64,000 nt of DNA, taken from NCBI GenBank assembly GCA_029582155.1, contig CM055895.1, positions 60,489,078 to 60,553,077 of the forward strand. Direction: 5' to 3'. Positions 6,501-62,540 of the stretch are shown one piece after another. Numbering within the stretch: the stretch's first letter is position 1; every line of letters starts with the position of its first letter. Source of the DNA: Panopea generosa. Lineage: Eukaryota > Mollusca > Bivalvia > Adapedonta > Hiatellidae. The translations under genes were made by a program, and so were the position numbers. Below the pieces are notes generated by a model. The model was not told where the DNA came from, did not search any database, and worked only from the letters and a program-made list of their open reading frames with translations.

Positions 6501-9500
6501 AAGGTTTATAACTATCATACACACAAAAGGTGTCAACAGAGAGAATAGGGAAGGTCTATAACTATCATACACACAAAAGGTGCCATCAGAGAGAACAGGG
6601 AAGGTTTATAACTATCATACACACAAAAGGTCTCAACAGAGAGAATAGGGAAGGTTTATAACTATCATACACACAAAAGGTGTCAACAGAGAGAATAGGG
6701 AAGGTTTATAACTATCATACACACAAAAGGTCTCAACAGAGAGAATAGGGAAGGTTTATAACTATCATACACACAAAAGGTGTCAACAGAGAGAATAGGG
6801 AAGGTTTATAACTATCATACACACAAAAGGTGTCAACAGAGAGAATAGGGAAGGTTTATAACTATCATACACACAAAAGGTGTCAACAGAGAGAATAGGG
6901 AAGGTTTATAATTATCATACACACAAAAGTTCTCAACAGAGAATACAGATGGTTTATAACTATCATACACACAAAAGGTCTCAACAGAGAGAAAAAGGAA
7001 GATTTACACTTATCATATGCACAAATGGTCTCAATAGAGAGAATAGGGAAGATTTTTACTTACCATACACACAAAAGGTCTCAACAGAGAGAATAGGGAA
7101 GGTTTATGATTATTATACATACAAAAGGTCTCAACAGAGAGAATAGGGAAGGTTTATAATTATTATACAAGATAAACATCGCAGTCAATCCCAATTATAT
7201 GCCTGTATGACTGTTAATCAAGGGGTGTTATAAATTCAAATCGTCACTCAACCAGTCTCTGTGATGACTGGCCATGAACTATGGCTCTGAACAAGTGGGG
7301 AAACAGTCAGTGGCTAGCAGAAGAAGTTGTGTCTAGTACTTATTTACTGCATAGTAGGTCCAATTAAAATACTGTTGGGAAAAAAGGGTTCCAAACCATG
7401 TACTACTCAATAATAGAATTAGACTTGTTGCATGATGTTTATAGTCACTTTCAACTATTTTTCAGTCATATTACGACGATGTCTACAAGAGACAGTATTC
7501 GGAGGCTGCCAAACTTGATACATGAGGTTTCAACATGTAATGAGGGGTTCTTCGTGGCTGAGTGGTATAAGGCGACATCTCAATATCACTTACCTATCAC
7601 CACTAAGGTCATAGCTGGTTCAAGTCCCGCTTGCTACAAAAACTTTATGTGAGAAAGTTTGCATGTTAGTTGCGAAAGTACAATGGTTCTACTCAGATTC
7701 ATTCTGAGGTATTCCACCACCAATAAAACTGGATATGCTATACATAACCTGAAATGTGTTAAAACTCCCATTAAAAAAACACACATAAAAAAACTTGCAA
7801 TGATTCTTTCAAAAAATCTATCACTTACAATGTATATTCTGGCAGTAACATTACACCCCAAAACTATAACATCCCATATCCTTAAACCCCAAAACCATTA
7901 AATCCCAGTATCATTACACCCCAATACCATTACATCCCAGTATCATTACATCCAAATATCATTGCATCCCAGTATCAACACATCCCAGTATTGTTACACC
8001 CCAGTATCATTGCATCAAATTATCATTACACCCCAATACCATTACATCCAAATATCATTACATCCCAGTATCATTACATCCAAATATCATTGCATCCCAG
8101 TATCATCACATCCCAGTATTGTTACACCCCAGTATCATTGCAACTAAATATCATTACACCCCAATACCATTACATCCCAGTATCATTACATCCCAGTATC
8201 ATTGCATCCAAATATCATTACACCCCAATACCATTACACCCCAATACACTTACATCCCAGTATCATTACATCCAAATATCACTGCATCCCAGTATCATTA
8301 TATCCTAGTATCATTACATCCCAGTATCATTGCATCAAAATATCATTACACCCCAATACCATTACATCCAAATATCATTACATCCCAGTATCATTACACC
8401 CCAATACAATTACATCCCAATATCATTACACCCAAATACCATTACATCTCAGTATCGTTACATGTACATCCCAATATTGTTACATCCCAGTATCATTACA
8501 TCTAAATATCATTACACCCCAATACCATTACATCCAAATATCATTACATCCCAGTATCCTTACACCCCAATACCATTACATCCCAGTATTGCTACATCCA
8601 AATACCACTACATCCCAGTATTGCTACATCCAAATACCATTACATCCAAGTGTCGATACATCCAAATATCACTACATCTCAGTATGTTATATCCATGTAT
8701 CATTATATTTAAATATCATTACACCCCAATACCATTACATCAAAATATCATTACATCCCAGTATCCTAACAACCTAATACCATTACATCCCAGTATCCTT
8801 ACATTCCAATACCATTACATCCCAGTATTGTTATATCCAAATATCATTACATCCCATTTTGTTACATATCGATTTGCTTTTGCCCTAATTTGAAGTCTGT
8901 TGCCCTTTAAAAATATTCCCCTTAAACATGATAACACTTACCCTGGTGGAAGGTTCCCTTTCAGATGACATCCAAGACAAAGGTCAAAGTGCTCACAATC
9001 ATTACAATGAATCTGAGTACCAACAATAAACATGATAACACTTACCCAGGTGGAAGGTTCCCTTTCAGATGACATCCAAGACAAAGGTCAAAGTCCTCAC
9101 AATCATTACAATGAATCCGAGTACCAACAATAAACATGATAACACTCACCCAGGTGGAAGGTTCCCTTTCAGATGACATCCAAGACAAAGGTCAAAGTCC
9201 TCACAATCATTACAATGAATCCGAGTACCAACAATAAACATGATAACACTTACCCAGGTGGAAGGTTCCCTTTCAGATGACATCCAAGACAAAGGTCAAA
9301 GTCCTCACAATCATTACAATGAATCCGAGTACCAACAATAAACGCCTGGCATTTGTTACACTTGTATCTGATTTAGTAAAAAAACATAACAAATGTTCAA
9401 CAAATTGTACAGTATTTTTTTTTCAAATTGTTTTATTATATCAACCCTTGTATTTACTTATAATATTGTAAAAGCAAAAAAAAATTATACTTTAAGTCAA

Positions 9501-12500
9501 TAAATAATCACTATTTTAAATAGTTAAAGAGAGAAAAAAACAACAACCTTTTTAAAGAATATTAACAACCCTTATGCAAACAAAACCAACAACAATGAAA
9601 CAATTTCTATAGAATCCATCTTGGACAATAAAACTGTTTGCTGCAATCTCACAAATAAATGTCCTCCTCGTAACCCCTCTGCCACTCCTCATCTCACCAT
9701 TTTGGAAATGAGAATTTTTATTTTTCAGATCCAAATGAACGACTCTTTAGAAAAATCTATTGGCTGTGTTTTTTTAATGTTGTTGTTTTTTACATTTTTT
9801 TCCCAAAGCAAGCAGATTTATTCATAATCTGTTACCCACTGTAGTGGTTAGCACAGTGGTCAGCACAGTGGTCATTTTATAAAGACTTTTACACACTGGA
9901 GTGACTAATAGTATACAGTTATTTCATGTGTATTTTGGAAACAGTCAAAACCACTGTCCAGAGGTATCGTGGAATGATTTTAAAAACTGTTCAAACAGTT
10001 AAATCCTTAAATAAACATTCAAGTATTTAAGGTTTATTCATATATCACACACAAATTGTCTTGTCTTAAATATTGGACTCCATACCATTTTAGAGGTAAA
10101 GACTGTTAGAAATAAATATTAAAAATTCCAAAAGCTTTCATCGATTGACATGGAATCTTGTCCAAACTAGAACCAATGCTGTAAAATAAAACTCAGTGTA
10201 CAATTTTTCATACAAAAAAATGGTGGTACATACCGATGTTTCATTAAGTTTTCAAATGTTAAAAGGAGTTTTATTTACGTTTTTCAAAACTTCTTAAATG
10301 TATGATAATTTTAGTTAAACACTTGCTTTTTATCATTATGCAATGCAGGGTCTGATTAGCTCAGTCAGTAGCACGTCTGACTATCAATCGAGGGGCCTGA
10401 GTTCAAATTCCCATCTGGTCACAGTCTCTGTGATGAGTGATATACAACACTGCATCTCATTATAATTTGTTTCTCACCACTGATTGAAGTGTGAAAGTTA
10501 TCAGTCATGTGGGGAGATGGGGTGTGCTTGAGTACAAGTTAACCTTCCAGAATACCAGGAAACAGTAGTTAGGTTAACTGATCATCTGTTAGCCCTCGAT
10601 TGCATAAAAATGACGCTATATATCGAATCAAATCAATTATTTATCATGACAGCAAATTTTATGCTGTAAAGTTCATAAACTTAAGAATGTTAGTAAAACA
10701 TGCCCCAGATTCTTTGTCAGAAATAAGACAGCTAATTTCCATTTACTTACACTAGATGTATGATGTCATGCTCATCGGTGTGCTTCTCTGGCTCAACACC
10801 ACCTGCAATCACAATGTATATAAAATGACATGTGATCAAAGTTCATTGATGTGGTTCCTTTTACAAGGTAGAGGTGGTCACAATATATTTACAAATATAT
10901 TTAAAAATTTAAACAAACAATTGAGATTGAATTTCATTAACAAATCTAGCAATTAAGATTGATAGACAGCTGAAAGAGGAACAAACATTTCAAGTATTTG
11001 ATGTTCACTGTACAATTAAAGTATTTACAAGTTCTTTTTTGTTTTTAATATGGTTTAATGCCTATTTCAACACAAGACCCGAGTAAATCCACCATTTTCC
11101 TGCAAGCGACATGGTAAAAATTCTCAAAATTTTTTTTGAATGATTGTTTAACACCATTTTTAACACATTTTAATGATAAATGGTATTTTTACTGAGAAAG
11201 ACCTTAGAATGTATCCGAATAGAACCACCCTCCTGCAAGTAACTGGCAAACTTTCTAATATTAAGTTTTTGGAGCAAGTGGGACCCAATCCTGCAACCTC
11301 AGCAGTGAAAGGTAAATGTTCTTGCTTTTGCAATCTTCCTACTAAATTTACCTGCATAGCACGTGGCACACAGATCCATATCTGTACACTGGGTACACCT
11401 GTACCTGCGTCCTGGCAAGGTGACGTTACATCCATCACAGTTTACCTCTACCTCCAGGAGATCACAGAAACGTGCGATAAACATCTGAACTGCCTGTAAA
11501 CAATTATATTAAATGTACTGTTTTCATTAATAAAATATAGAAATTATATGAAATGAAAAATAAGTTGAAATCCAACTGCATGTAGGTATTAGAATATTTT
11601 TCACCACAGTAACTATAAAATTTGAATTTAAACCATTTGGTACTGTAGATTTTCAAAATTATTGCTATTACGGTTTTTCAAACTTTTATTAGCTGAAATT
11701 TTTTTCTCTAATATATCATGCCTATATATATTCACTGATCCCGTATTGCCAAAAGGATATCTATTTAAATATGACTAAATAATAAATTGGAATGGGGTTT
11801 TCTAACTTGGGTTATGCACCTAGGTTAGACTAAAATAGATTTTCTGCTTAAAAGTACAACATATTTTGTGACCTATTAAATGAGTCACATGATTTCATTT
11901 TAATTTCAATTAGATCAGTTATGCAGTAAACCTAGTAAAAAATGTTTCGTATCTGAAAGAGTTTGAATGACATCAAGCAGTATTTTCTGAAGTATTTAAG
12001 TGCTGTCTATTTTAAGAATGGGGATTATGTTTTAAGTTCACCATTCCAATTTAAATATCGATTTTGTCACCTTTTGGTGGATTTGACATACCAAACCATT
12101 CAGATTTCGTTTATTAATGCTAATAAGATGCTTTTGATTCATTTTAATATTTACCGGCATCATATTTTTTAAAGACATTTGAAGCATTTTTTTCCTGATA
12201 TATTTCCTTTAAATTATAAAAATGTAAGGAATGCACTTCATTTGGTGGATAAGATATGAACCTGTAACAAGCAAAGTTTACATGAACTCCCTTGGGGTTA
12301 ACTGACTTTGCACGTGGTGCATGCATGCTCATATCATTCCTTAGGTACATTTTACATGCATTTAAAGCATACCCTATTTTGTGTTAAAATTAAGCAAGGT
12401 TTGTGCAGATCAATTTTGTGCAGGATGATGTGGCTGCTGGAAACCATCCGCATGAATTTATTTCATAATAACATCCGAAACTAACCAAGTTTAAACACTA

Positions 12501-15500
12501 TAAAGAATAATTTGACTGCTCATAAGAGAAGAACAGCGCATATGCAAAATGAATGTGATCAGTACATGTATATGGGCAAAATGAATGTAAGAAATGCATA
12601 CATGTACAAAATGAATGTGAACAGTGCATGGGCAGAGTGAAAGTAAAAACTACATACTGGTACAAAATGAATGTGAACAGTGCATGTGCAAATTTAATGC
12701 AGAAAGCGCATACATGCACAAAACAAATGGGAAAAATAGATAGGAACTAACTTTTTTCTCCTCATCACCTAGGTCCTCCTTGTTTTTATACCATGTGACA
12801 AAGGAACCACCGCTGCACTCATCAAACCACTTCATGTGCTGCGTGTAATCCTTCAGCTCCTCCGCCTCGTCAAGTTGCTCCAGGCGACAGTCACGCATCT
12901 TCACTGTTTCTTTGGCAACCTCCGAGAAAAGATCTGGTAGTTTCACATTCCACACGAACGAAAGATCGTATTGCTACAAAGGAAATGTTATTACAAACTG
13001 ATACTGTATTTGAAAGATCGTATTGCTACAAAGGAAATGTTATTACAAACTGATACTGTATTTGAAAGATCGTATTGTTACAAAGGAAATATTATTACAA
13101 ACTGATGCTGTATTTGAAAGATCGTATTGCTACAAAGGAAATGTTATTACAAGCTGATGTTGTATTTGAAAGATTGTATTGCTACAAAGGAAATGTTATT
13201 ACAAGCTGATGCTGTATTTGAAAGATCATATTGCCACAAAGGAAATGTTATTACAAGCCGATGCTGTATTTGTAACATGAAAATGAATGTTCCACAAGAT
13301 ACATTCAGCTGCCAGTATTTGAAACCGTTTTTGGTAGTTTTTACTTTTGATATATGCACAGGTTATCACTTAACTTATAACTGATTTTTTAAGCATAAGA
13401 ATCATGTTACCTTGGCAATGAAAGGGAGAAACTGTGTAGTAAGACGTATATTCTTACACTCCGGACAATTAAGCTAGAAATATTAAATGTTTAATGCTCT
13501 ATACGTTATAATGCACCATACTCACCTGCCACTGTATGTCCAGCAGATGTAGCAGACTAGATTGCATGTAATCATACGCTGCATGAAGATTCCTGCAAAA
13601 CACCGCATCAAGATCAGTATCAAAGTATACTTTTATAGTATGTAGGTCATAGAGTGTGACTGCTTGTGCATGTGCAAAGTGACCCCTTGGATCTAGGCCT
13701 TATCACACCATATTTTGACAGATAAGCCTACAATGTTTGAATATTTAGTGTCATTTTTATGCTACTGAGGGCCAACAGACAATTAGTTAACCAAACCACT
13801 GTCTCCTGGGATCCTGGAATTTCAACCAGTACTCAAGCACACCCATATCTGCAAGTAACTGATAACTCACCCCTTTGAATCAGCAGTGAGAGATGAATGA
13901 TAATGAAATGTATTATTATTTATCAATCATCATGGAGACTGCAGCAGGGCGGAGATTCAAACTCACGACTCTGGACTGATAATCAGAGGCACAACAGACT
14001 GAGCGGTTGGCTACAAGGACATGTGACTTGTACAAGTAAAGAACTCGAAACAGCCTTGTTCTTTGTGCGCATCTTCAATCTTAAAGTGGCATTCCCTTGT
14101 TCATAATGTTGCATAGATCCATTGATGTATACGGTACTCTTCTGTACTTATGTCCAAGTTATCAAAATCATAAATACGGGTGGTATTTACTAAGAATTAA
14201 GAATTCTAGTTTTCTAATGGAGGAAACCGTTGAAATGTATAAAAGAAGAACCAATGCCCTTCCACACTTTCCAACAAAATGTTAATACATCAAGCTGGAC
14301 CTCAGTGTTGAGATGCGACTCTTGGATCACTCAGCGATATATGACCCCAGCCCCAACCCCATCCCTGATAAACTAGTTACTAGTTACAATATCTAACACA
14401 GACATACAAAATGATAAATCGGAAAACTACAGAATTTGTTTTACCAGCAAGGCATCAAACACAGAAACTTACTTATCTAATTCATGCCTCTTGTACTTGT
14501 GGAAGGCTTCTGTGAGTTGGCGTATGAGAGTGTAGAATGACTGCCTCACCTTCGTCTCTTGTTCTAATCCACAGCCATCCAGACCCTCTGCATAATGTTT
14601 GGCAAACCCGTCTTGGAAACTAAGCATCTCTTGCAGGAAAAGTACCACCAGTATCTAGTGTGATATTACAAATGAAGTAGGCTCAATCTGCAGTAAGGTC
14701 TGTAGTTATTTTGTTTCCAATATCATGTGATACATATATATGAAAAAAAACACCAGGCAAACAACCATTTATAATATCTACAGTTCAACCTACTGCAACC
14801 AAATGTTAATTCATTTGTTTGAATAGTGGCATTCAGTGCCTTTTTTCAACAGTATTTTAGTAATATAACTGCAATCAACCAGTACTAGACAAATTTTATC
14901 TCTGCAAGTTACTGACTACTGCTCCACACATTCAGAAGTGGGAGACTCGTGGCTTCAAACAGTTCACCAGTACTGGACACACCTTATCTCTGCAAGGCAC
15001 TGACCACTTCCCTACATATCCAGAGGTGGGAGGCTCATGGCCATATAACAAAGTGCATGACCAAAGATCACAAAGACTGTGACCAACCAGGGATTCGGTT
15101 TGTGATTTATAGATTGTTTTTAGTAAGTAAAGAAATACCTGGAATGGATTGTCGTCTGCTAACATTCTAACCATCTCCGTGGCGATCAAGTAGACGTTTG
15201 CTACAGCCTGAGCATGTTGACTCCTCTCTTGTAGTATGTTGTCTACCCTACAATGATTGATTGATTGACTGATTGAATATTTAGCGTCATTATTATGCCA
15301 TCAAGGGCTTACAGACGATCAGTAAACTCAACAGCTCTTTCCTAGGTTCCTCGAATGTTAACTTGTGCTCAAGTACACCCATCTCCGTAAGTAAAAGATA
15401 AATTTCTCACTAGAATCAGTGGTGAGAGATGAATGATAATGAGACATGATGCTGTAAATCAATCATTATGGAGACTATACTCCACAAGCAAATAATACTC

Positions 15501-18500
15501 ATTTGGTTTCAAAAGAGATACCATGTGTTACCAACATTGACAGTGGGATATAAATTATTTGGTTTGGTTGTCCATTTTCTCTATCTATTTGTCTATTTAT
15601 ATGGTGGTTAGTTTAATCAGATTACAAAATCTCTTAAGGTCAATTTTGAATTACATGTACTTCAAAATTGATTAAGGAAAAACAAATGATAAGACAAATG
15701 TCTCGTACAAAGATAGACAAGACGGCAACACCTGCAATATATAACTCACTCGACCGAGATCTGTTGATTATATAACTTCTGTATAAGTTTGGTACAGACT
15801 CAGTATAGGTGCAGGTGCTAGAGTGTACATAATCTGAAGGTTAATAGTAGGTTGGAGAATGGTTGGGTGGATGAACGGAAGAGACGCAGACAAATCAGAG
15901 TAGCTTATCTTGAGCCTTGAGCATTTCTGGAGTACTAGAAATAAAACTTGAAATGTTTCAAATTATAGATGTGGCATTTAAGCTATTTACCTCTCTGTGT
16001 TCCACGCATGATCTTGAACAAATTCCAGCACCAGTCTGAATGAGGGGAACTTTTCTGATATATCAAACTGTAAATATATACACTCTTGTTGTACATGTAC
16101 ACTCTTGTTGTACATGTACATTGTATGTTTATAAACTTTATTTCAACTTTAATTTTTATTATTCATGATTTTAAAGATGCTTAAATTTTGATGGAAAAAC
16201 CTTGGGAAGAACAATTATCTTAATTTTGATCTTTATCAAACCAAACATTGTTACAAAAAATTCGTGTTTTTTTTTTATTGAAAACCACATTTTGTCAAGA
16301 TTTGACATTCAAAATCATTTGTATTTATTTATTAATAATAATAAAATGCTTTGTATTCATTTTAAAAATATTTTATTCTCTTCAGACATTTTAAGTGATA
16401 TTTCCCTGTGTTAGCACATGTAGAAAATTATTTCAGCATGGAGTTTCTGTGTACATTGTAATTATCGTGATTTCAGTGAATGCAGCCAAAGGCATGAGCA
16501 AAGCAAACTCATGTTTACATGCAGAATTCATAACACTTTCTACTTGAAAAACCTTAGTTCCAGAAGTGGATTCATGGGATTTCAATAAAAATACTGTGTA
16601 TTAAAACAATCACTATCAACATTATAAAGTTACTGTAATAATCATGAGAGGATGTAAGAAACTTTAAAAAACTTTTTTTTTCTCCACCCTAAAATGCGTT
16701 GGGGATCTCATTTTGCAGCATAGCATAAACCTGTCTGTTCCGAAAGTACCCGATGACGGGATCGTAAAAACTTATTAGTTCTGCATCTGCACGTTGCATT
16801 TATAGGTTTTACCTATTTCATATTGGATACTATAAAGCATACAATTGGAAAAATATTCCTTTGTCATCAGCCATAAACTGCAATGTAATATTGTAACCTC
16901 AGCTTGAATGGCACAAAAAATATGTGCTATTTCTATTTTTGGTTGATAAAATTGAAAATATGTCAAGACTTCATGTCATGTTATTGATAACACAGTCAAA
17001 ATACGACCACTAAAAAAAGTGGTCATCCTAGTCCATTATAATAAATAAGCAAGGATGAAGTAAAATATCTATTTATAAATTTAGTAACAAATAGCACATG
17101 TGACCACTATCAACCAATGAAAAATGGTGTTGTGTATTGATAGGCCTTTTGACAATTTCATAGCAAGATATGACACTAAAAAGTCAGTGGGTGATTTAAA
17201 GCTGAAGGCACAAAAATTACTCTGCAGATTAAGAAGCCCATGTACAAGTACATCTCTTTTCATTATTAATAAAAATGGTATAAACATGGAGCTACAATGG
17301 TGTATACAAACCTTATGACCAAACCCAGCTATACTGGTGTATGCAAACCTTATGACCAAACCTAGCTTCAATGGTGTATACAAACCTTATGACCAAACCC
17401 AGCTATACTGGTGTATGCAAACCTTATGACCAAACCTAGCTTCAATGGTGTATACAAACCTTATGACCAAACCCAGCTATACTGGTGTATACAAACCTTA
17501 TGACCAAACCTAGCTATACTGGTGTATACAAACCTTATGACCAAACCAAGCTATACTGGTGAATACAAACCTTATGACCAAACCGATCTCCTCTTCTGGT
17601 TGATTTCTTCACCTGTTTGGATGATTTCACTTTTGACAACTGAAAACAATTAATAATATTTTTCCATAAAGTGTTATAGATTCTATTTATAGATTACAGA
17701 GATCTACAGGCTTATACATATATCAAATCAATAAAAGATGCTTAAAATTTTGCATGGTACCTTCAACATTTTTTTAAAGAATTGTCTGAATTTAATAATT
17801 TTGGTACCAAAATAAAGCTGATAAAAATGTTGACAAATTCTTAACATCAATCGTAACATATATATATCTTCTAAATTACAACTGTCTGAATAGAAAATGA
17901 ACAAAGTTGGACACACGTTTTTATAACACAAGTGGTTGGACGACAGCGAGATTGACTTATGGAAGCTTACATGTATCTCAAAACAAAAGCTATAGGATGA
18001 CTGAGAATTAGACAAAAATTTAAATATGCTATAAAAATCTAACCTTAATCTCTAAATATATAAAAGGATATATTTTAACAAAATACAAGCAAAGGTTATT
18101 TGTACTTGACCTTGTGAGTTATTTCTTTAATATTGAACCGACCGGTCAATATCTATTTAAATCTTAAAAGTATTTTCTGAGATATAAACTTTTTAAAACT
18201 TTTATCAAATTTCAAAGTATAAAAGGTGTAATAATTCTGCCTAAAACACAGTCAATCCCACTTGTGTCCTTAATGGTAGTTGACAGTCACGATGTTTCAT
18301 TGACGTATGACTAATAGTTACTTAAATTTAAGCTTGTTACAAAACTTAAAAGTATTAAAGAGATTACGTGACTTGTGTAAGCTACCTAAAGTCATACCCA
18401 AGCTATCCCACTTTGAGTTCTCTTATTAGTAGATAACATACATGTGATGTGTTGTTGATGTATGACTAGTAATTACTAAGATACATGTAGAAGTTTGTTA

Positions 18501-27500: not shown

Positions 27501-30262
27501 AAAGGCCTTCTGTGATAGGTGCGGGAAAACACGTAACTATGGAGTAAAGGGTTAAGTCAATGTCAATGAATGCTTTACTTTTGAACACGCCAGGCCTGGT
27601 TAGCTCAATCGATTGCATGTCTGACTACCAATCCTGGGGTTGTAAATTCCAATCCTTGACCAGCTACTATGTCTGTGATGATTGATAAATGACATTTCAT
27701 CTCTCTCACAACTGATTTAAGTGGGTAAATTAGTTGTGGAGACGGGTATACTCGAGTAATGGTTAACTTTTCAGGATCCCACAAAAAGAGTGATTAGAAT
27801 TATAGATTGTTTGTTAGCTCTCATTGGCATGAAATGACCCTTCTACTCCATAATACACAGTTGCTTGCTGAAGGAGGGCAACTCTACTAATATTCATGTA
27901 AGCGCATCTTAAGTTTCAGATGATAATACGGATACCATCATATACACTGTGACGTGTTGAAATTGATGAAAAATTATGAAATCATGATCTGTTCCTTCAC
28001 GCTAGAGCCACATACTTTGGTAGAGTATCAGTTCTCTGGTAGTCGTAATATCTGCATAAATATGTTAACATTGGGTTACAATAGTTACAACAATATGTGT
28101 GATCTCATCTACTGACCTTTGTAAAAAGGTTAACACTGGTTTACAATAGTTACAACAATATGTGTGATCTCATCTACTGACCTTTGTAAAAAGGTTTACA
28201 CTGGTTTACAACAGTTACAACAATATGTGTGATCTCATCTACTGATTTTTGTTAATAGGTTAACACTGGTTTACAATAGTAACAACAATATGTGCGATCT
28301 CATCTACTGACCTTTGTAAAAAGCTTTCAGATGTGTGCAGCAAACACTGGAACCCAGTCATCAATTGTACAACAAGAGTTCTCAGAAGACCAACAAAGCT
28401 CGCCTCTGGGTGTCTAAGTCCAAAAAGGGCCATAACTGTGCCAAAATGCAATCCAGAGTTATGGTTCTTCATCTCTGTGTGTTCCATTGATGATGGTAAC
28501 ACACCTGCAAAGTTTCATTCATATCATACGAGTGGTTGCATAGATATCTGAAACTTGTACGCAAAAGTTTAACCTGGGTGTCTACAGACAACGACGCCGT
28601 CGGGGTCATGACAATAGCTCTCCTTGGACTTTGTCCCGGTGAGCTAAAAAGTCCATGTACTAAGAATGTGTTACAAGTATTTCTGTACTACTTGTCTTAT
28701 AAATAAACTAAGAAAACAAGCATAACTACCTGGATTTGCATTGAGTGTTGCTCCACACAGTCTACCCATTAGTTTTGTGAGGCCGAGCTGCAAGTCAAAG
28801 GGCCATGACAGTGGCATATCAGGGCTTCCTCTAGCAGTCACCTGGTAATACAATTTTATGAATATCACAAAGGGTTGTACGGTTTAGAGAAGAGATGTTT
28901 ATTTATAGCACAAATGCATTTCGGTCTGACAACAAATTAAACAAATTGGTTACACATTGATAGAAAAATTTCAAATAATCAGTCAGTGAAGTCACCGTCC
29001 TCTGATCCACACATGAAAACATGCCATGATAGCTTCTCCCAAAATACTTCCTTATCGTCAGTAATTGGTCAGTCCCAATTCACTCTCCATCACACTTGTC
29101 TGATGCAGTATGTGATGCAGTATGTTGGGTCATACACTGGAATTATAGATCAATTTGCGACAATAACATTGCCGAAAGGTATATTTCAGTCTTGACAGGT
29201 CAATATGGAATAGTTTTATAATTTCTGATGGACGGATACACAACTGACAGAAAACATCTAAAACCAATTCTAATTTAAAAATTTAAAAAAAGAAATTGAT
29301 TCATTCAAACAAAAATTGGTCTGAAACTGATCTTGGAAGCCTTTGTAGATGCAATCATTTTCAGAAATAGTTATAAGTCAAAAAAGTTAAAGTAATAACT
29401 GATAAAATGCCTGGTTGGTGGGGTACATATACATACAAAGATTAATAGACAAAATGATTAATGAAATACATTAACATACATATTCTAAAACTGTAAATGC
29501 TGCTTGCAATAGTTTGATAAAGTGGGTCTGAAATTCACGCGGCTTTGTTCTTCCGGTATATGATTCCAATATTGTCATGTGTCACTTTAAATCATTTTGG
29601 TGGTTTAGGAATAAAATTAATGTTGTTATGGTGCTGCCACAATGGAGCTGCCACAATGGAGTATCATGCCACAAACGCATGAAATGCTATCTTACCCAGT
29701 CACATTATATGAACACAGGCTGACCAGACCTACAACTATCCTCTAAATGCTGAGCGTCAAATGAGGAAACTTTTAGTACCATTTTTCAAGTTTTTGGTAT
29801 GACCCGACCAGGGATCAAACCTCCACATGCGAAGGCAGACACTTTTAAGAATAAAATAAGATTTCACAACCAAACAACCAACCTTAAACTTGTATCCCCA
29901 TTCTGTATTACTGCTGTCGGAGTGGAACAGGAAGTGAAGGTGCGCTCCCACAAACTGGATCTGTTTAGGCCACTTTGGTGTACCAACCTTCTGGTCAAAC
30001 CGCATCTGTTGACCCTTTGAGTCAGTAAACACCAGGTAGTCATATCTGCAGGGACATTGGATATACAATGTACAAGTACATTTTTGCTCACAGAAAGAAA
30101 AATTAAATCACGAACAAGACACTGGAGTATTGCAAGCGATACATAAGTCATCTCCCAGTTTACAACTGAAAAAACAACAACCCTACATTATCTCCTCATT
30201 GCCCTCTATCCACATGCACGGTTACACAAACCTAGCTTGAATATGGTTTTATTTATCTTTCC

Positions 30263-30309
<47 letters not shown>

Positions 30310-48300: not shown

Positions 48301-51220
48301 TTATTTGAAAATCGGTCCTTACATTTAGAAATTACAGGGAGAACACAACCAGCAATGCAGTATATGGGAACATACAGCATCAATTTGCCACAATAAGACC
48401 TGTACATGACATTTGCGGTAGTCACCAAGGTGACCTTTGAGGTAGTCACCCGTGTTTTGTTCTGGAATTGTAGTCAAACTGGCTACTGGCTCAACTTATC
48501 AGGCCTGGCAAATTCATTTTCAATTTTCTATACTAATCCAAGTACTGACCTGACCTTGACCATTGAGATGTTGGACTTGACATGTCATCATATCATGCTG
48601 AACACTTTGGTAAAGTTATTTTAAATGTCTTTACGTTTAGAAATCACAGGGGGGACACAACAGCAATGCAGTGTATGGAAATATACAGCATCCATACACC
48701 AAACCCGAAACTATCCGAGCTAACTAGGCCCGGCAAATTCATTTTGTATTTTCTATACTAATTCAAGTAAAAGTTTCAGATTTTTCCTCCCAATTTCGTT
48801 GACTGTATGGCAAACTTAACAAAAAGTTGATTTCTGCAAATTGATTCTCCCCTTACATTTATATCATTTTCAACTAATGACTTTTTTTTTTTTAAACCTA
48901 AAATCTCTCAAAAGTATACATACCTGACCCACTGGGTACCAGTTAACTGGGATGTCAATTTCATCACTGAAATATTACATGAAACTGATTAACAGTCACT
49001 GAATTATCGTTATAATAGCATAGGAATTTATAACATATTAAATCAACTATGAGATGTTCTCAAACATTCTTGTTACCCACATACATATACATGATAGATA
49101 TTTCTTTTATCTCTATCCAACTGTAGTCCACATAGATAATATGGGGTTGTAAGATTAATCACATAGAAAATAAGAGTGATCAATAGTCCAGTGGTAACAC
49201 CTAGAACTTGTGATCCAGGGGTTGTAAGATTAATCACATAGGAAATAAGAGTGATCAATAGTCCAGTGGTAACACCTAGAACTTGTGATCCAGGGGTTGT
49301 AAGATTAATCACATAGGAAATAAGAGTGATCAATAGTCCAGTGGTAACACCTAGAACTTGTGATCCAGGGGTTGTAAGATTAATCACATAGGAAATAAGA
49401 GTGATCAATAGTCCAGTGGTAACACCTAGAACTTGTGATCCAGGGGTTGTAAGATTAATCACATAAGAAATAAGAGTGATCAATAGTCCAGTGGTAACAC
49501 CTAGAACTTGTGAGCCAGGGGCTGTAAGATTATACTAACTTAACCACAGTGGTGGTCTAATAGGTAGAGCACCTCCTCGCATGCAGATGGTCATGGGTCT
49601 GATCCCCAGTTAGGTCATATCAAAGATTTAAAAATCAAGAAGTCATTGCAGCAATATGGCATAAAAATTGTTGAAAGTGATGTTAAGCACCATACAACAA
49701 CAGGATATTATCTTGTCTTCTACCTTCATTTGCATGAAAAAAAAACCCATATATATTAAGATATTAAAAATGTAAATATTTTAATCAAGTACACACCAGT
49801 CATCTTCAAGAGTGAAATATGCGACAGGATTGTCAGGCTTTCCAGCTATACCAGCATTTCTGTAATGAAAATACACATATCCATAAACTGTAATCATCAT
49901 TGAAATTGACCAATCATATAACACATATAATTACATTTCTGTAATGAAAATATATATATATCCATAAACTGTTATCAAAATGGACCATTCATATAATACA
50001 TATAATTACATTTCTGTAATGAAAATACACATATCCATAAACTGTAATAGAAATTTAACATTCATATTCATATAACACAAGTAATTACATTTCTGTAATG
50101 AAAATACACATATCCACTGTAATGGAAATTTACTGTTCATATAACACATATAATTACATTTCTGTAATGAAAATACACATATCCATAAACTGTAATGGAA
50201 ATTTACCAGTCATATAACACATATTATTACATTTCTAAAATGAAAATACTCATCAACTTAATTGGGAATTTACTGTTCATACATGTATAACACATATCAA
50301 TGAAAATGCACATATAAAATCATTGTTACAGAAGAATTCTGCAAAATAAAATGTCGCTCCAATATTGCTCTATCAGAAAGTAAGATTATGTTGTTGGCTA
50401 ATCCATAGACATCAATATCTTGTGGAAAAATGCTGCACAACTCTGAATATTAAAACATAACTACAGATCAAAACTTTGTAACTGTATTTTTAGTAACACT
50501 GTCGCCTGTAAAATTAAGCAACCTTTAAGCGCATGTTGAAATCATGTCTATGTTACATGTATGTGGAGAGTTTGACAGCAATGATCTGAAAAATAAGAGG
50601 AGTGAACAGGTTTTTTAAAATTTGTATAATGACGGAAAATGGAATTAAATTTTGCAGGACTGTAGTGTAGTGGATAGAGAGTTGGCCCCTCATGCCAGAA
50701 ATTGCGTGTTCAATTCCAAGCTTGACCAGCTGCCCCTCAAAAAACCTCTCTCAGTACTGGTTCCATCCAGGAAGCTGACTCAAAAATGGTTCTGCACTTT
50801 CTTTGCAATCAACCTATAAATTTAGTATCAACTAAGCAATCCAAGTGTGTGCGAAGATTTGCAGGCAACACAAAAAGCAACCCTACCTGACTTGTACACT
50901 GAACTGGTACTCTAGTTTCCCCCAAGAGTCATATCCCTCAAACCTCTCCAAATGGTCTTCCAGTTTAAATTCAGAACTGAAATAAATGTATTTTCAGCAT
51001 TAGCAAAGTATTTTTCTAATGATTGAAAAGTATTTTTCACATGCAATAAATTGAGTTTTGACAGAGAAATAAACCATATTCTTTCTGCAAGTTATTGGCC
51101 AATTGTCCATTAAAACCTATGTGCTGTAAAGTCTAAAACTCTCTATCCATAGTCAGTGCATTTTATCACTTTATAAAACATTTACATTTTGAATGTAACT
51201 AGTTAAAAAGAAACTTTGTA

Positions 51221-51270
<50 letters not shown>

Positions 51271-54200
51271 GGGGGGATCAGAATGTTTGTAGACTTTGCC
51301 ATAACTTATTTATGTCAATTATACAATGCACAATAGTGTAATTGTATTTGAAATAAATGTATATGGGACATATTTTGAAAATTTTAGCATGATACGTCAA
51401 CAATTAAGAAAATAAGGCACTATTCAAAGCATAGCAGTTAGATATGTCGGGACAAAATGACGATGTTGTATTCAACAAAAAACGATGTCAATATTTCAAA
51501 CAGGTGCTTTTTTATCAAATTTACTGGGTCGCTTCTTCTCAAAATACTCTCCTCCATGGTCTATACGTTTTTGCAACCATTTAAACCATTCAGTGAACAT
51601 GTTAACAAAATCAGAAGATGGTATACTGGACACATAATTCTGTAAAACATGCTTTGGTTCCAATTTGTCTTCAAATCGACTTCCCATTTGCTCTTTTTTT
51701 AATGACTAATTCTCGGCCATCTCAAAAACATTAATTTTTTTATATTTAAACACTAGAGACCTTGAAACATTATATTCACCGTATATACTTTTGTTTCTCT
51801 CTATGAGCAGGTGTATTACCTAACATGGAGCAGAACGGAACTAAGGTATTTCGCAAGTTTATCCATTTTCAAGTGCCCCGACGTCATTTTGTTTCAAACA
51901 AAATGGCATACTGTAACATCATAATATTGACGTCATTTTGAGATGCGCATAATTGGTGTCATTTTTTTAAAGGATGTGAACAAGCATACAATACAGCACA
52001 CATTGATGATATTTTTTATTTAAAAATAAAACGCATTTTGGTAACGCTACGCTTGTTTGAATAGTAGCGGTAGGAAAAAAGCAAAAACTGCCCCGACTAC
52101 GTAAATTGACGTTTCCATAGCTACTATAGAATATAAACTAATGATGAAAAATTATAATTTTTTTGCAAAATTACTGTAAATATATAGCGGCACATGATCC
52201 CTGAGAATTATTAGAATACAATGGTAAATAAAAAAGTAATGGCAAAAGTCTACAAACTTTCTGATCCCCCCTCGTATATATATATATTTGTAAATGAGGA
52301 TTAATGCCATTTTCAACACATTTCAGGTCATATATGGCATATCAAGTTTTACTGGTGGAGGAAGACCTCAGAATGAATAAGAGTAGAAAACTTTCTCACA
52401 TAAAGTTTTTGGAGGGAGCGGGACTCAAACCTACAACTTAAGCGGTGAGAGGTTAGTGATCTTATGAGGTAAGAGATGGCGCCTTAGACCAAATGGATAC
52501 GAAAGACCCCTAAAGTTTACATCACATAATTATGATATAAACAGGTAATTTAAAATGTTCTACAAGCAGTGTATTTTATCTAACACTATTGCATTTTATT
52601 TGTATTTCCTTTTACAGCTATTCCAATTCCCAATTCCAATGTCAGAAACAAAAATGTATAAATAAAGTATTAATTTACAAACCTATCTCTGTATATAAAC
52701 ACTAAGCCCCTTTTGGCACCTTTCACCCCTGGAGACACCTAAAATTTGGTAAAAAATGAAAGTACATTATATAGTGTGTTTACAATCAAAATGATTAACT
52801 TCTTATGTAATGTGTGCATCCAGATCTCTAAGGTCACTGACAATGTCTATAGGTCATATACCCTATAGCATGTATACACTGATACAAATTATAAACAGGC
52901 CATCTTTCTTCTGACTTTATATCAGGAATATCAACTAACATTTAATACCGTAATATTTGATAATTGTCTTTTCAATATAAACGGTATTTGAATTGTTAAA
53001 AGATACCATTTTCAACACATTACATGTTATTTCTTGGTGGAGAAAGACTTCAGGATATATCTATTAAAGTAGAACTGATCCTCCTTCTGCAAATAACTGG
53101 CAAACGTTCTCACTCTTTCATATTTTGGATCAAGCTAGGGCAAGAATCCACATTTTCAGTAAGCGAAAATAAGAATCTAACATGGGCTCGAGGTTCAGAT
53201 AAAATATTCTATATCCTGAGGGATAACTGTTTTTGGAGGGAATGTGGCTGTGCCAAGTTCCCACTGAAAACAATTATCCCAAGGGACGGGATTTTCTATA
53301 TGAATGGAATAAGCCATTATTTGTGGAATGTTACTTCAAAATATGTCATGTGGTTTACAAGATATCAGACAAACACAAAGTATTGTACCTATGTCTGAAC
53401 TAGACTGGACAAGATCAGGCACACGTGCACCAGACCATCATTGTGATGACTATGTCAAGCTCACCGCAAACAGCTGGACAATAGGTTTAATTTTACTATT
53501 TTTAAAAGAGTCAGTATCTTCTATCAATTTGTATAATCTCTTATTATTTATTGACAATGTCATTATTACACAGTAACCTTCAGTTGACCACAATTTGTAT
53601 AATATCTAATTATTTATAGACAATATCCTTATTACACATAAACATTCAGTTGACCACAATTTGTATAATCTCTTAATATTTGTAGAACATATCCTTATTA
53701 CATACATGTAGTAACCTTCAGTTTGCCACAATTTGTACAATCTCTTATTATTTATAGACAATATCCTTATTACACAGTAAACTTCAGTTGGCCACACTTT
53801 GTTAATTCTCTTATTATTTTCAAACAATGTCCTTATTACACAGTAACCTTCAGTTGACCACAATTTACATATTGGCAGTGCATGGTACAAGAGGTAAAAA
53901 GTAATTTACAGCTGTTTGTAATATAAAACACTATGGTTTTTTTTCCTACAAGTTTATCTACGTTTTTTGTATTATAAACATCTTGACCAAGCAATATATT
54001 ATATACACAGAAGGTCTATTTTTACAGCAACAAGGAGGTGGGGCAATATTGCAGTCAAGACATGTGTACACAATAGCAGTACTCCTCCAACAATGAGCCA
54101 TGATAAACTGACATTTCATCTTTTATATAAATATAAAAAAATACTATTTATCACTACCATATTATAAGATAAGGAAAAATATGAAGAAGTTGAATACATC

Positions 54201-57200
54201 CACTCTAACCTTTAACTTCAGTTTTGTGACCTGTATGTAACCAGTGGTCTTAAAAATCATGTTTACTTTCATCTTGCCTTCCTCTGATATGTACACTGAA
54301 AAACAAGAATTATTGCCATCAACATAAATTATGTGTGTATAAATTATTTAAACTCTCCTGAAATATTTCAGACTGTTTTTGTTTAAGAATTGTTTCCACA
54401 AACTAGAGAAATAACGTCAGAGGTAAGCAATTGTTTCCATAAACTAGAGACATAAAGACAGAGATAAGCAATTGTTTCCATAAACTAGAGACATAAAGAC
54501 AGAGATAAGCAATTGTTTCCATAAACAAGAGACATAAAGACAGAGATAAGCAATTGTTTCCATAAACTAGAGCCATGAAGACAGAGATAAGCAATTGTTT
54601 CCATAAACTAGAGCCATAAAGACAGAGATAAGCAATTGTTTCCATAAACTAGAGACATAACGACAGAGATAAGCAATTGTTTCCATAAACTAGAGACATA
54701 AAGACAGAGATAAGCAATTGTTTCCATAAACTAGAGACATAAAGACAGAGATAAGCAAGTGCTTGTCTAAATTGTGGCAGACACATTTGGCATTGAAAAC
54801 ACAACTACTCTTAAAATATTATTTTCATTTTGGTATTAAAAAAAAAGGGATTTGCTGTAACTTTGGGTTTTAAAATTTTCTTTTTTAAATTTAAAGTAAT
54901 GAGGACATTTTCTGCTACAGTTATTGTTTTGTGATAATTTTCTCATTTTTTTGTGATAATTTTCTTATTTTTGTTATCACTTTCTCATTTTTTGTCTCAT
55001 TGTCATTTGTCTCTTATTGCTGATTCAAATGGAAAAGGTATTTATTATCTGTGCCAGGCCCTCAGTCAGTAATGTGTCTGACTATCAATCCAGGGGTCGT
55101 GGGTTTGAACCCCTGCCCATGATCACTGATATACAATGTTGAGTCTCACTGTCATTCATCTCTCACTGCTGATAAAAGTGAGAAAGTTATCAGTTACTTG
55201 CGTAGATGTGTGTACTCAAATTCTGTTTAACCTTCCAGGATCCCAGGAAAGAGTGGTTAGGTTAACTGATTGTCTGTTAGTCCTCAATGGCATAAAAATG
55301 ATGCTAAATATTCAATCAATTAATTACAATCCATCCAAAAAATACATATATGGTGTCCATTATTACATTATAGGGTCCTCCATTGCCGAGCGGTTTTAGG
55401 CAATGCCTCAAGATTATTTACCTCCCACTGTTGACCTTGTGGGTATGAGACCAGCTCAACCCAAATTTTATGTGAGAAAATCTGCCAGTTACTTGTGAAA
55501 AAATATCAAATTCATTCTGAGGTCTTCCTCCACAAATACTTGAAAAAAAATGGAAGCCACATTCATGTATATTATGTGATGTAACTCCCTTCAAAAATTA
55601 AAAATGTGTTCATGAGAAAACTGTAAGACATTAAAATTGTAACAATAACACTAAATAATCAGTTGATGGCCATAACTGCGTCCTTCTGTTTTTCTTTGAA
55701 TAGGCATAGGACAATTACGATTGCATGAAGCTAAATGACGCTAATTTTCAGCACATATTCAGCACTCAGCACAGAGTACTGATGGGAGTGTACTAACCTG
55801 GTGATGTTTCCGTCCAGGACGAGGTGAGAACATTCTCTGGTTTAGATTGTTCATCATGATGTCCGCCATCGCAACCACACAAAGTCAACTGTAGCTGGTG
55901 TCCTGTAAACAAATTGTTGATGAATTATAAAAACTATGTTACATTAGTTACGTAATTTATCCTTTTAACTCAAACTTAAATATTTTCTCCCTACAAACCT
56001 TTAAATAAAGATGAAAAATATTTAACAAGTTATTTTTACAAAAATATCACAAAGAATTTTCGTTTTAGATTAAAATTATTTTACACTGACTTTTCAAAAT
56101 TTCTCTCATTTTATAAAAAGCCCTTTTCAGTTAGCTCAGTCACAAACCCATTAGTCACTGTGATGATTTTATAAACATTGAGTCTCATTGTCATTCACCT
56201 CTAAATGCGGATTCAAGTGGGAAAGTTATCGTTTACTTGCAGAGATGGGTGTGTTCGAGTACTGTTTAACCTTCTAGGATCCCACAAAACAGTTGTTAGC
56301 TGAACTGATTGTTTGTTAGCCCTCGGTGACTTCAAACAAAATAAAATCAATGCTCACCTTCAGTATAACCCATACAAATCATATGCTGATAAAGTGAACC
56401 TGTATGAAGCATATACTGATAAAGTGTCTTGCCCAAGGACAAAACACATGGCTGTGTTTCAGATCAAACCCACAAACATCTGACCCAAAGGGAAATTTTT
56501 TATCAAAAACAGACATGTGTCCCATTATATCAATAGAAGATACCACATCTACTGACCTGATCTCACCACATCTACTACCCTAATCTCACCTCATCTACTG
56601 ACCTGATATCACCACATCTACTGACCTACTGACCTGATCTCACCACATCTACTGACCTGATCTCACCACATCTACTGACCTACTGACCTGATCTCACAAC
56701 ATCTACTGACCTACTGACCTGATCTCACCACATCTACTGACTTGATCTCTCCACATCTACTGACCTGATCTCTCCACATCTACTGACCTGATCTTTCCCA
56801 GCAGGAGTCTCGGGCTTTATGCATTTTGTTCATTAAAGGAGTACAGGGCAGTGACAAATCTGGATGGTCTGAAGGAACAAGAAAAACATGTTATGGCTTA
56901 GATAATTCACTTATATCTAGACAGATAAGAAACTTGAATCTTCTGACTAAATGTCAATAGAATAGCATAAGATGTATTAATTATTTTGCAAATTAATCAT
57001 TTGAAATCTGCATACAACTGACTTCTTGTAAAATAAAATTTAAGTTGTATGTTTTGACAATGCAAAATGCTCTTAAATTAAAAAGAGTACAGAAGTGTAG
57101 CAAAACTTCCAAGTCATTTTAGAGACTGTATACAAATTACTGAAAATAGTCTCCTGTAATTCCAACTGGAAAAGTAAAACATTTAATTTATATTTCTGAT

Positions 57201-60200
57201 ATAAATGGAAATTGTGATAATTGAAACATATTTTACCTTCTTACACATTTAACCTACTTCAAAAATTTCACTTTCTTAATCCAAACTGTGACATATGATA
57301 CTGTTGCTTTTTAATGTTTTGATTACATGTACATCTAAGAATGTTTCGTACGTTTTCTTCCAGCATTACTAGATTTGTTCCATTAAGAAGCAAAGTCACT
57401 TGCTCCATCAAGTGATATTCTAAAATTCTAAATTGTATTTGTCATTTGTAATGTTATTGAAGATTCCACATAAATTATGTTTGAAATTTTATTCATCCAA
57501 ACATGTTTCTATCACTTACCTTGGAGTATCTTGAGTGTCCTCAGTAAACCGCCAATATGCCCTCGGGCCAGGTTGAATGACAACAATAATTGCACACCAT
57601 CAGGTAAAACTTCATTCTCCTTACTATAATAGAAGTGCAGTATGTATCACATTATTTACAGTGGAGTGCAGTTATAAACCCATGACATACTTTTATATCA
57701 ACCTGGTGTAATATCACTTCCGATTCATGGCTCTGTGTTTTCCGTATAACACATCTCTCGAACTTAAAATACCGAACTACACTCTGACTTGCATGAATCT
57801 ATAAATGACGTCTATTTGTTATAGTAAAATGACGTTATTTTGAGCCATTATGCCGCACAATGACTGACAGAAACTAATATTCCAAATTCTTTTTCCACGT
57901 AGAGGCGATCTATTAAATAAGTAATGTGACAAAAAGAATCTTACATTCATGCTCATTTATTATCTAATTTATTAAAATTGTTGGCTAAAATAATATAATG
58001 CTCAGCACAGCCTCGCATAGTATAATTTTTGTAAACACGTTCAATAAATTAAACAATAAATGATCACTCGTTTAAGAGCATCTATGTATCATATGATGAG
58101 TACCACAATATACATGCAGAATACATTATTTTTAAGTGATTTTTTTTTTTTTTTTTTTTTTTAAATTATAACACAATTTTCAATGCATCACAGTTTTTAA
58201 TTGGCTACTAGTTTTATTGATGGACAGCCTTGGAAAAATGAACGAATAAAACCACCGGTTTTCAGTAGTAGCAAAATAAAGCCAACATTTTAAAATGAAG
58301 AGGTCATTATTCAGATATGTATTGACTGATCAGACCATGTTTTAATCATGCATGAAGTCGGGCCAGGTTAGTTCAGTTGGTAGCGTGCATTGACTATCAA
58401 TCCTAGGGTCACGAGTTAGAATCGCCGCTTGGCTACAGTCTCCATGATTTTTGATTCATATATACAACATAGCTTCTCATTGTCATTTGTCTCTTATTAC
58501 TGATTCAAGAGAGAAAATTATATTAAAGTTACTTTCGGAGATGGGTGTGCTGAAGTAATGGTTAACCATCGCAGCATCCCAGGAAAGATTGTCCGTTAGC
58601 CCTCAAAGGAATAAAAATGGTGTTAAATATTAAAAAAACTTAATCATGCAATGGTTTAAATACATTTTATATACAATATTATCAGCTAAACATGCACAAT
58701 ATTCACAATATACGAGGTGTGTTAAAAAACTTTTGTAATATTTCAACATTTATTTTAGGACTAGAATCATATATGTACAAACACAAACAAGATAAGCATT
58801 TAATTTAAATTGCCATTTATAAAAAATATTTCCTCTATGCAATTGCAAATTTCTTATCTATATTATATATGTAGCAACAGTTTAGAAAATATGCATGCAG
58901 TCGTTACCCAGAGTAGTCCAATGATGTCAGCGACTTCAAATTTTTGCACAACATTTAACCAGCCAAATCACATCTTGTCTAAGTACCCAGCTGGCTCTTG
59001 GATGCACTTCATACATGTATGTGTCTTTTCACCCATTAACCATACACATCTCTATATCACTCTTCCTTGAACTGTGCAATGATGTAATGAGTTCATGTAG
59101 ATTTGACCGGTTAAACATTGTTTGAATACTTGAGGTCACTGGACTGCTGTGGTAGTCGATATTTGCATTTTTTCTAGCGCTAGGTAACAATATTCAATAT
59201 CAATATGAAATTTCGCATTTGCATTGAGGAAATAATACTTTTTATGGCAATATAATTTCTATTTACAAGCTATGCTCGATTCTGAAAATACTACAAAAGT
59301 CTGCATATTTTTTAAACACACCTTGTATATGATAAGAATGAAAGAATTCTTTGGAGTTCTTCCCCGAATGAATCCTACTTACACAGCAACCTCTGTTACA
59401 AATTTCTCCACCTCCTGTAAGACAAGTTTACTTAGAAATGGTGGTTTATCACTGCTTGCTGGGCTCAGGGACAGTGGCGGGATGTGTTCTAGGGCATGTC
59501 TGAAATAAACAAATTTCCAATCATTAAATCACACAGAAATCAGATGAAAATATAGCCAATAACAGAAAACTTTTTATAATAACATACTATGCTCTCAATG
59601 CAAGATATGTGCGGAGCACGTGGTCCAGTGGTAGAGCATCAAACCCAGGAACAGAGGATCTTGTTTTTGAACCTCCCAAACGGCTACATGTATGTGAGGT
59701 GTCCTTTAGCAAGACCCTTTTTCCACATATGCTTAGCACTGGTTCTGCCAAGGAAGATTTTAAGCTTGATTGGTTGTAACAACTTATTTCACAATCAAAG
59801 TAAAATAAATAAGTTTAACCTTATGCAAGATTTTTCAATAGAATTTATATAGCATCTTTTTTTTATTGTAGTGAAAGACTTCAGACAAAATCTGTCAGAG
59901 TAGAACTACCATCTTTCTGCAAGCAACTGGCAAACTTTCTCTCATTAAGTTTTTTGACCGTGATGGGCTCAAACCCATCACCTTGGCAATGAGAGGTATG
60001 TGATCTTGAGACACTGTCTTTTAACCCTTTACTCCATAGATACACGTTTTCCCGCACCAATCACAGAAGGCATTTGAAAACAGTGCAGGAAGAGTTCAGA
60101 TTGCTCGTAACGAGCAATCTGAACACTTTCTGCACTGCTTTCAACTCTGTCAGTTAATATAAACATAATTCACCCAATAATTCGAAAGCCTTCTATATTA

Positions 60201-60865: not shown

Positions 60866-60869
60866 CTGT

Positions 60870-62540
60870 AAATATAAATATACATGTATGATACCATAGG
60901 AACCATGTGGCAGTCAAAATTCTGACACACTGATACCAGCCTCCTTTACTACATGTACCCTCCTTAACAACTCTGTAAATATAAACATATGTTACCATAG
61001 GAACCATGTGGCAGCTGAATCTGACACACTGATACCAGCCTCCTTAACAACTCTGTAAATATAAACATATGGTACCATAGGAAACACGTGGCAGCTGAAT
61101 CTGACAAACTGATACCAGCCTCCTTAACAACTCTGTAAATATAAACATATGTTACCATAGGAACCATGTGGCAGCTGAATCTAACACACTGATACCAGCC
61201 GCCTTAACAACTCTGTAAATATAAACATATGTTACCATAGGACCCATGTGGCAGCTGAATCTGACACACTGATACCAGCCTCCTTAACAACTCTGTAAAT
61301 ATAAACATATGTTACCATAGGAAACATGTGGCAGCTGAATCTGACACACTGATACCAGCCTCCTTAACTACTCTGTAAATATAAACATATGTTACAATAG
61401 GAACCATGTGGCAGCTGAATCTGACACACTGATACCAGCCTCCTTAACAACTCTGTTAATATATAAACATGTTACCATAGGAACCATGTGGCAGCTGAAT
61501 CTGACACACTGATACCAGCCTTCTTAACTTCCCTGTAAATATAAACATAATTATGTTACCATAGAAAACCATGTGGCAGCTGAATCTGCCACACTTATAC
61601 CAGCCTCCTTAACAACTCTGTTAATATATGAACATATGTTACCATAGGAAACATGTGGCAGCTGAATCTGACACACTGATACCAGCCTCCTTAACAACTC
61701 TGTAAATATAAACATATGTTACCATAGGACCCATGTGGCAGCTGAATCTGACACACTGATACCAGCCTCCTTAACAACTCTGTAAATATAAACTATGTTA
61801 CCATAGGAAACATGTGGCAGCTGAATCTGACACACTGATACCAGCCTCCTTAACTTCCCTGTAAATATAAACATAATTATGTTACCATAGAAACCATGTG
61901 GCAGCTGAAGCTTACACACTGATACCAGCCTCCTTAACTTCCCTGTAAATATAAACATAATTATGTTACCATAGAAACCATGTGGAAGCTGAAGCTTACA
62001 CACTGATACCAGCCTCCTAAACTTCCCTGTAAATATAAACATAATTATGTTACCATAGAAAACATGTGGCAGCTGAAGCTTACACACTGATACTAGCCTC
62101 CTTAACTACTCTGTAGATATAAACATACATGTATGTAATTAAAGGAACCATGTGGCAGTCAAAAATCTGACAAACTGATACCAGCCCCCTTAACAACTCT
62201 GTAAATATAAACATATGTTACCATAGGAACCATGTTGCAGCTGTATCTGGCACATTGATACCAGCCTCCTTAACTACTCTGTAAATATAAACATAATTAT
62301 GTTACCATAGGAAACATGTGGCAGCTGAATCTGACACACTGATACCAGCCTCCTTAACTTCCCTGTAAATATTAACATATGGTAACACAGAAACCATGTG
62401 GCAGCTGAATCTGACACACTGATACCAGCCTCCTTAACTACTCTGTAAATATAAATATACATGTATGATACCGTAGGAACCATGTGGCAGTCAAAATTCT
62501 GACACACTGATACCAGCCTCCTTAACTACATGTACCCTGT
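60870..62540. repeat. 80-bp minisatellite carrying the W1 acceptor and exon start (about 21 copies)
   Basis: Plus-strand unit: ctccttaacaactctgtaaa, tataaacatatgttaccata, ggaaccatgtggcagctgaa, tctgacacactgataccagc. On the coding strand each unit contains an intron end (tatatttacag) plus exon bases for VVKEAGISVSDSAATWF, then breaks off into the next unit. Some units carry a 'cataattatg' variant. Confidence 0.97.

Follow-up and report, generated by a model that had tools for sequence, protein, structure and literature searches.

Probable mirage-type minisatellites across exon edges of a ZZEF1-like gene in Panopea generosa

The window, a stretch of 64,000 nucleotides from the Panopea generosa genome, contains, on the minus strand, a ZZEF1-like animal gene whose N-terminal end lies at high coordinates. 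When a human ZZEF1 sequence is used as the query, ordered HSPs over residues 381 to 2146 extend across the window, the strongest with E values of 8e-19, 1e-15, and 4e-11. Four HSPs depart from collinearity: three that fall in ZZ or CUB-like repeats, and a weak one on the plus strand. The host gene has both the collinear similarity and the ZZ fingers expected of a ZZEF1 orthologue, and blastp of its pieces gives E=3e-97 and 1e-86. Pfam identifies a ZZ domain on the joined ZZ peptides (E=5.9e-13) and a CUB match that lies below the CUB cut-off (E=0.016). Pfam gave no match for five of the seven peptides searched, and the Rfam search returned 0 matches. GC content is 31–38% across the window in 2-kb steps, about 34% for the window as a whole, and 0.451 in exons versus 0.330 in unique intron.

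The exon model consists of 44 exons with 4878 coding bases. Joined in order, they are stop-free but for 30707–30881, 29883–30045, and 28730–28841, and the latter two lack stops when read in the phase supported by the human protein. Where homology is lacking, exon edges were placed by reading frame and by the scores of the splice sites; the final list was settled by eye with frame, match to the human protein, and repeat-like sequence as criteria. The first gene-finding pass called too many exons, 158 on the minus strand in its last round. A stricter run miscalled eight units of the array at 60811–62554 as exons, and exons wholly inside arrays were therefore barred from the next run. That run yielded 53 predictions, of which 11 were dropped: 60046–60146, 59588–59744, 52435–52460, 45211–45255, 38146–38235, 37508–37609, 28505–28659, 27428–27536, 4578–4633, 139–217, and 42536–42870, the last being a 30-bp array. 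Two predictions were merged into 30707–30881; edges were altered at 44590, 42250, 30045, 27131, and 15139; and 52683–52738 and 5125–5168, taken from a further run, and 28312–28504, taken from the first pass, were added to give the 44.

The least certain choices are those around 30.7 kb and 28.3 kb. The conserved exon 30707–30881 has a one-base frame break near 30800, its two halves align to the human protein in separate frames, and its end is out of phase with the next exon; the break may be a sequencing error, a polymorphism, or damage. At 28.3 kb, 28505–28659 and 28312–28504 are protein-like open stretches in different frames that abut at AG/GT, and the gene finder picked one or the other depending on the run.

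Tandem Repeats Finder (TRF) reports 65 rows in the window, which after merging give 18 arrays with a score of at least 200. A single extension rule was applied to all 18, and only the 80-bp array grew, from a TRF edge at 60887 to 60811–62554. Eight of the 18 arrays (seven without the exon at 17571–17639) cross exactly one exon edge, each by less than one unit, and none of the 18 swallows an exon. The edges crossed are five donors (9254, 17571, 24643, 28312, and 56788) and three acceptors (12973, 49859, and 60865). In each case the array takes in only one of the two junctions of its intron; the opposite junction is clear of it.

The eight arrays and their exons, all on the minus strand, are described here from the N-terminal end of the gene. 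The most upstream array, at 60811–62554 (TRF 60887–62526, extended), holds about 21 units of 80 bp over acceptor 60865, with 55 bp of exon in the unit; the exon itself, W1 (60734–60865), matches human ZZEF1 at E=7.5e-5. Units of 23 bp, and also of 31, 54, and 85 bp, make up the TRF array at 56542–56794, which lies over donor 56788 and takes in 7 bp of exon W4 (56788–56868), an exon in frame on both sides with a coding score and no HSP. The TRF array at 49855–50281 has 73-bp units over acceptor 49859 and includes 5 bp of exon W9 (49797–49859), which is collinear, in frame, and supported by coding score, with an HSP that is not significant (E=4.4). At 28057–28323, TRF finds four units of 65 bp over donor 28312, with 12 bp of an exon (28312–28504) that has no HSP and is placed by coding score and phase, in frame with its neighbours; one gene-finder run extended this exon to 28284 and another preferred 28505–28659.

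The largest copy number belongs to the TRF array at 23320–24666, with 29 units of 46 bp over donor 24643 and 24 bp of exon 24643–24764 (HSP E=0.009). Eight units of 37 bp occupy 17290–17584 by TRF, over probable donor 17571 and with 14 bp of a probable exon at 17571–17639, which is predicted with good sites and in frame. Because this exon is without homology support, the firm count of junction-crossing arrays is seven, and the array at 17571 is a probable eighth case. Six units of 52 bp at 12960–13272 (TRF) lie over acceptor 12973 and include 14 bp of exon W35 (12752–12973; HSP E=3.9e-11). The last array, at 8923–9343 (TRF), has four units of 104 bp, each composed of 90 bp of ZZ-finger exon plus the donor and 14 bp of intron; its exon, W38 (9254–9367), encodes the second ZZ finger, as judged by Pfam ZZ on the joined peptides and an HSP of E=1.2e-7.

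These arrays bear out the initial annotation in its main observation, that at least seven of 44 exons have an array whose unit holds the exon edge and its splice site: TRF and the exon model give seven such arrays, with the probable eighth at 17571. Five of the exons it named (W1, W4, W9, W35, and W38) agree with the present model; its W26 and W29 must be two of the three exons with donors 28312, 24643, and 17571, and our guess is the first two. Donor 17571 may thus fall outside the exons named earlier. The tally of three acceptors holds, whereas that of donors was inconsistent, being given as four donors plus that of W38 although the four names include W38.

Neighbouring copies match at 78–98% across the TRF rows of the eight junction arrays. 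No modal unit length is divisible by three; certain longer spacings are. For no two of the 18 arrays does the similarity exceed what shuffled sequences reach (best score 26, versus a mean shuffle maximum of 26.6 over 60 shuffles), and the arrays therefore look independent in origin, in line with the earlier proposal that they arose separately. The most similar pair, the arrays at 28312 and 56788, has 13 bases in common, donor included. The arrays that contain 28312–28323 and 56788–56794 share AGGTCAGTAGATG over the splice site; shuffled arrays score as high, and the sharing is therefore probably due to chance and donor consensus.

In each case one unit is joined to the unique coding part of the exon and decoy splice sites lie in the intron, an arrangement described earlier that can be read off directly. 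Decoys were scored with site matrices that combine a generic prior with the 38 donors and 41 acceptors of the remaining exons. GT or AG is kept in 63 of the 71 decoys listed by a scan that omits some units; of the eight listed decoys without it, one is probably a misalignment. Many decoys score equal to the real site, and one in the 9254 array scores higher (10.0 versus 7.9). Variation in the splice-site columns (36/1037) is similar to that in the rest of the unit (138/3752, p=0.85); of the eight arrays taken singly, only that at 9254 differs (2/36 versus 2/380, p=0.04, as one of eight tests). Since the decoys are mostly intact and vary like the remainder of the unit, they would fit neutral passengers that are ignored under exon definition.

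Use of the decoys is predicted to be costly. In all five donor arrays, reading on beyond the real donor reaches an in-frame stop in 1–49 nt, before the first decoy. For acceptor decoys, 15 positions were tested, 13 of them with AG, and 12 of these 13 bring a stop in the extension or in the first 45 nt after it. The exception is 13025, the decoy closest to the real acceptor in the 52-bp array, where the read-on is open over the tested stretch and frame-shifted. Decoy use would damage the product, and proximal choice must therefore dominate if the gene works.

Junction-spanning arrays are known as "mirages", for which Canestro et al. 2002 is said to be the source cited. In the amphioxus Adh3 and globin genes, they have been published under that name, with cephalochordates as the range given there (PMC3087553). 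As in the arrays here, the amphioxus unit lies over a 5' or 3' exon–intron boundary, many copies have splice signals, and the authentic copy adjoins the exon. In the present gene, the unit lies over an exon–intron boundary in the eight (or, without 17571–17639, seven) arrays, and the copies have splice signals in 63 of 71 decoys, with the authentic copy adjoining unique exon. Unit sizes of 10 to about 160 bp and an 81–100% likeness among copies of BflGb6, as stated there, are also comparable. Amphioxus copy number is described as haplotype-dependent, and globin RT-PCR and Adh3 data are presented as suggesting that regular splicing is undisturbed (PMC3087553). The same account calls the mechanism unclear and proposes mirages as a source of introns (PMC3087553). 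The present case differs in having seven or eight arrays in one gene, with up to 29 copies. The gene is a new and unusually dense example of the mirage type.

The arrays are thus likely to be mirage-type minisatellites, that is, short tandem duplications whose first unit lay over an exon edge by happenstance and which expanded on the intron side. Duplication over one junction would produce the order exon edge, intron edge, exon edge, intron edge, in which the copy adjoining the unique exon is necessarily left intact, while the remaining copies become intron. Selection needs no special role because duplication of a single junction automatically leaves a working one; the earlier suggestion that selection had kept those duplications that rebuild a junction is therefore superfluous, and a viability filter alone predicts 1.65 junction-crossing arrays, against the eight observed.

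Tolerance of the arrays would follow from how splice sites are paired. Introns above about 250 nt are recognized by exon definition, with a preference for the sites closest across the exon, according to human data and minigenes (PMC9225289). Seven array-bearing introns could be measured, the intron above exon 60734–60865 running out of the model; at 552–4085 bp, all seven exceed this threshold. With long flanking introns, the spliceosome would pair the sites closest across the exon, so that the exon-proximal copy would be used despite the decoys and the mRNA would be unchanged. Decoys invisible to splicing would permit free expansion on the intron side, and the arrays would be tolerated like other intronic repeats. 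They look harmless because only the copy adjoining the real exon should be spliced, and splicing of the array-bearing junctions is probably unchanged.

Whether the number of overlaps is surprising depends on the null. The initial annotation regarded chance overlap as unlikely and proposed shuffled array positions as the test; the first part holds when seed units are placed at random, but not when whole arrays are shuffled. In the seed null, arrays are collapsed and the founding unit is placed randomly in the gene, with units inside exons or over two junctions barred. This null expects 1.65 crossings versus the eight observed among 18 (P=7.8e-5, post hoc and for one gene), or 1.61 versus seven without 17571 (P=5.3e-4). 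Taking the best-scoring TRF period as the unit gives 1.88 versus 8/18 (P=2.1e-4), weighting seeds by GC gives 1.92 (P=2.4e-4), and restricting the model to the 15 exons with an HSP of E<=0.01 gives 0.59 versus four (P=0.0023). A rerun on all 65 TRF rows of period at least 15, in which the best-scoring period served as the unit and the 80-bp array was taken at its extended length, gave 8/18 (P=2.1e-4), 8/21 (5.7e-4), 8/25 (0.0011), and 8/32 (0.0023) at score cut-offs of 200, 100, 85, and 50, respectively; without 17571, seven crossings remain at each cut-off, with P=0.0012, 0.0028, 0.0047, and 0.0085. For scores of at least 50, 2.50 crossings are expected versus 8/32, or 2.45 versus 7/32 without 17571. 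Unextended TRF edges yield 7/18 (P=5.4e-4), or 6/18 without 17571 (P=0.0031), and a hand-picked set of rows scoring at least 85, which left out the arrays at 30263–30309 and 39983–40049, yields 7/23 (P=0.0015), or 6/23 (P=0.0068). All P values are post hoc and for one gene, which the initial annotation had singled out with the pattern already in view.

Shuffling whole arrays, as had been proposed on a genome-wide scale, gives no excess here: 8.1 junction-touching arrays are expected, and at least eight occur with P=0.63. On average, however, 5.95 of the 18 shuffled arrays swallow an exon, versus none observed, and only 1.04 are clean one-edge cases. The lack of excess arises because placements that destroy exons are counted, and the whole-array shuffle was rejected as a null for this reason. 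For questions of this kind, shuffling grown arrays is the wrong null, and the seed unit should be placed at random instead.

One alternative is that neutral arrays fall at random and that this gene drew notice by happening to have many over junctions. We hold this to be rather doubtful. It gains from the choice of one gene after inspection, from thresholds set partly after seeing the data, from the whole-array shuffle, and from the loosest array set without 17571, where P rises to 0.0085. It gains further if the introns were shorter at array birth, with P=0.0085 for twofold and P=0.087 for threefold shorter introns, the latter with 4.95 crossings expected. The seed null speaks against it, as do its versions with best-scoring periods, GC weighting, and HSP-supported exons. 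The longest interspersed intron repeats are only 65–76% identical (30 longest rows) and therefore look older than the arrays, so that the introns were probably not much shorter at that time. Neutrality alone is insufficient to account for the local excess. A better candidate, though still a tentative one, is a mutational bias that makes tandem duplications more frequent at exon edges or close to them, arising for example from replication slippage, co-transcriptional structures, or steps in base composition. Besides the eight crossings versus 1.65, 13 of the 18 arrays lie over a junction or within 100 bp of one versus 4.82 expected (P=7e-5), with the cut-off chosen afterwards and distances taken after array collapse; the array at 7843–8856, for example, counts as 80 bp from a junction after collapse and lies 398 bp away in the window. 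The step in GC between exons and unique intron also accords with such a process, but GC-weighted seeds barely raise the expectation, and the tendency of the 10 off-junction arrays to lie close to exons is not significant (mean rank 0.31, KS p=0.075). Moreover, when exon reach is expressed as a fraction of unit length, its distribution is consistent with uniformity (KS p=0.63, n=8), and nothing therefore points to the splice site itself. The suggestion that duplication favours splice sites loses ground on this account, and the other arrays lean towards exons too. The data weakly favour exon neighbourhoods over the splice site as the target of array birth, and the most likely source of the local excess is that tandem duplications here generally tend to begin within exons or close to them; neither splice-site activity nor array function is the probable cause.

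That the decoys are functional, holding splicing factors or serving as regulated alternative sites, is highly improbable. Most listed decoys do keep GT or AG, and a C. elegans minisatellite is described as over-represented near alternative splicing regions (PMC4039745), but conservation in the site columns does not exceed that elsewhere in the unit, and the stops met in the five donor arrays and in 12 of the 13 tested acceptor decoys with AG argue against use. We give equally little credence to the arrays as traces of intron gain through tandem duplication of exon sequence with splice signals. Zhuo et al. 2007 reportedly trace human introns to tandem arrays that carry splice signals. Cases of such gain are published for potato RdRp (PMC4974935) and Drosophila (PMC2891723), and ATP2A1 and fission yeast are further cases cited in that literature. 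The potato duplication includes splice signals and crosses an intron–exon boundary, as do the units here (PMC4974935). There, however, a new intron resulted, whereas here one site is repeated inside an intron whose other site is elsewhere, and each array covers a junction at one end only. The duplication thus does not supply both splice sites of a new intron in any of these arrays; a far older gain may have used other sites. Human paralogues with internal tandem repeats are similar in their intragenic minisatellite expansion and possible use of cryptic splice sites, but there the exon or intron structure of the paralogues is altered (PMC2812944).

Read in the preferred way, as mirage-type minisatellites that arose over exon edges by happenstance, the case adds three things to the known type: a high density within a single gene, a comparison with a seed null, and an indication that the decoys drift neutrally. 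With seven or eight natural series of nearly identical splice sites in competition, the gene offers a ready test of the closest-across-exon rule for long introns. A broader and rather speculative proposition, which we think unlikely, is that tandem duplications are preferentially born at exon–intron junctions genome-wide through an exon-edge mechanism, and that long introns and exon definition let arrays accumulate as a reserve of splice sites for intron gain and sliding. Among the papers listed by the literature search on such arrays, none concerned a genome-wide excess. If true, such an excess would suggest that exon edges are subject to a mutational bias so far overlooked, and would bear on intron shift or origin.

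Several other repeats occur in the introns. A weaker array at 12545–12723 (score 190, outside the 18) lies 29 bp from the donor of exon 12752–12973, which thus has arrays on both sides, this one and the acceptor array. The long TCATCA-rich 47-bp array at 33518–35756 ends 40 bp from the donor of exon 35796–35852 and has a very strong strand skew, with a GC skew of -0.67 at 34–36 kb. Interspersed self-repeats make up 11528 of the 46853 non-array intron bases. A repeat of about 280–300 bp is present in at least six places (3627–3907, 10354–10639, 13734–14011, 25193–25485, 47062–47374, and 55053–55352) on both strands, with copies about 71–75% alike and a more distant copy at 58367–58659 (65%). 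A second repeat of about 400 bp has three copies, 73–76% alike, at 11757–12210, 32227–32674, and 63087–63501.
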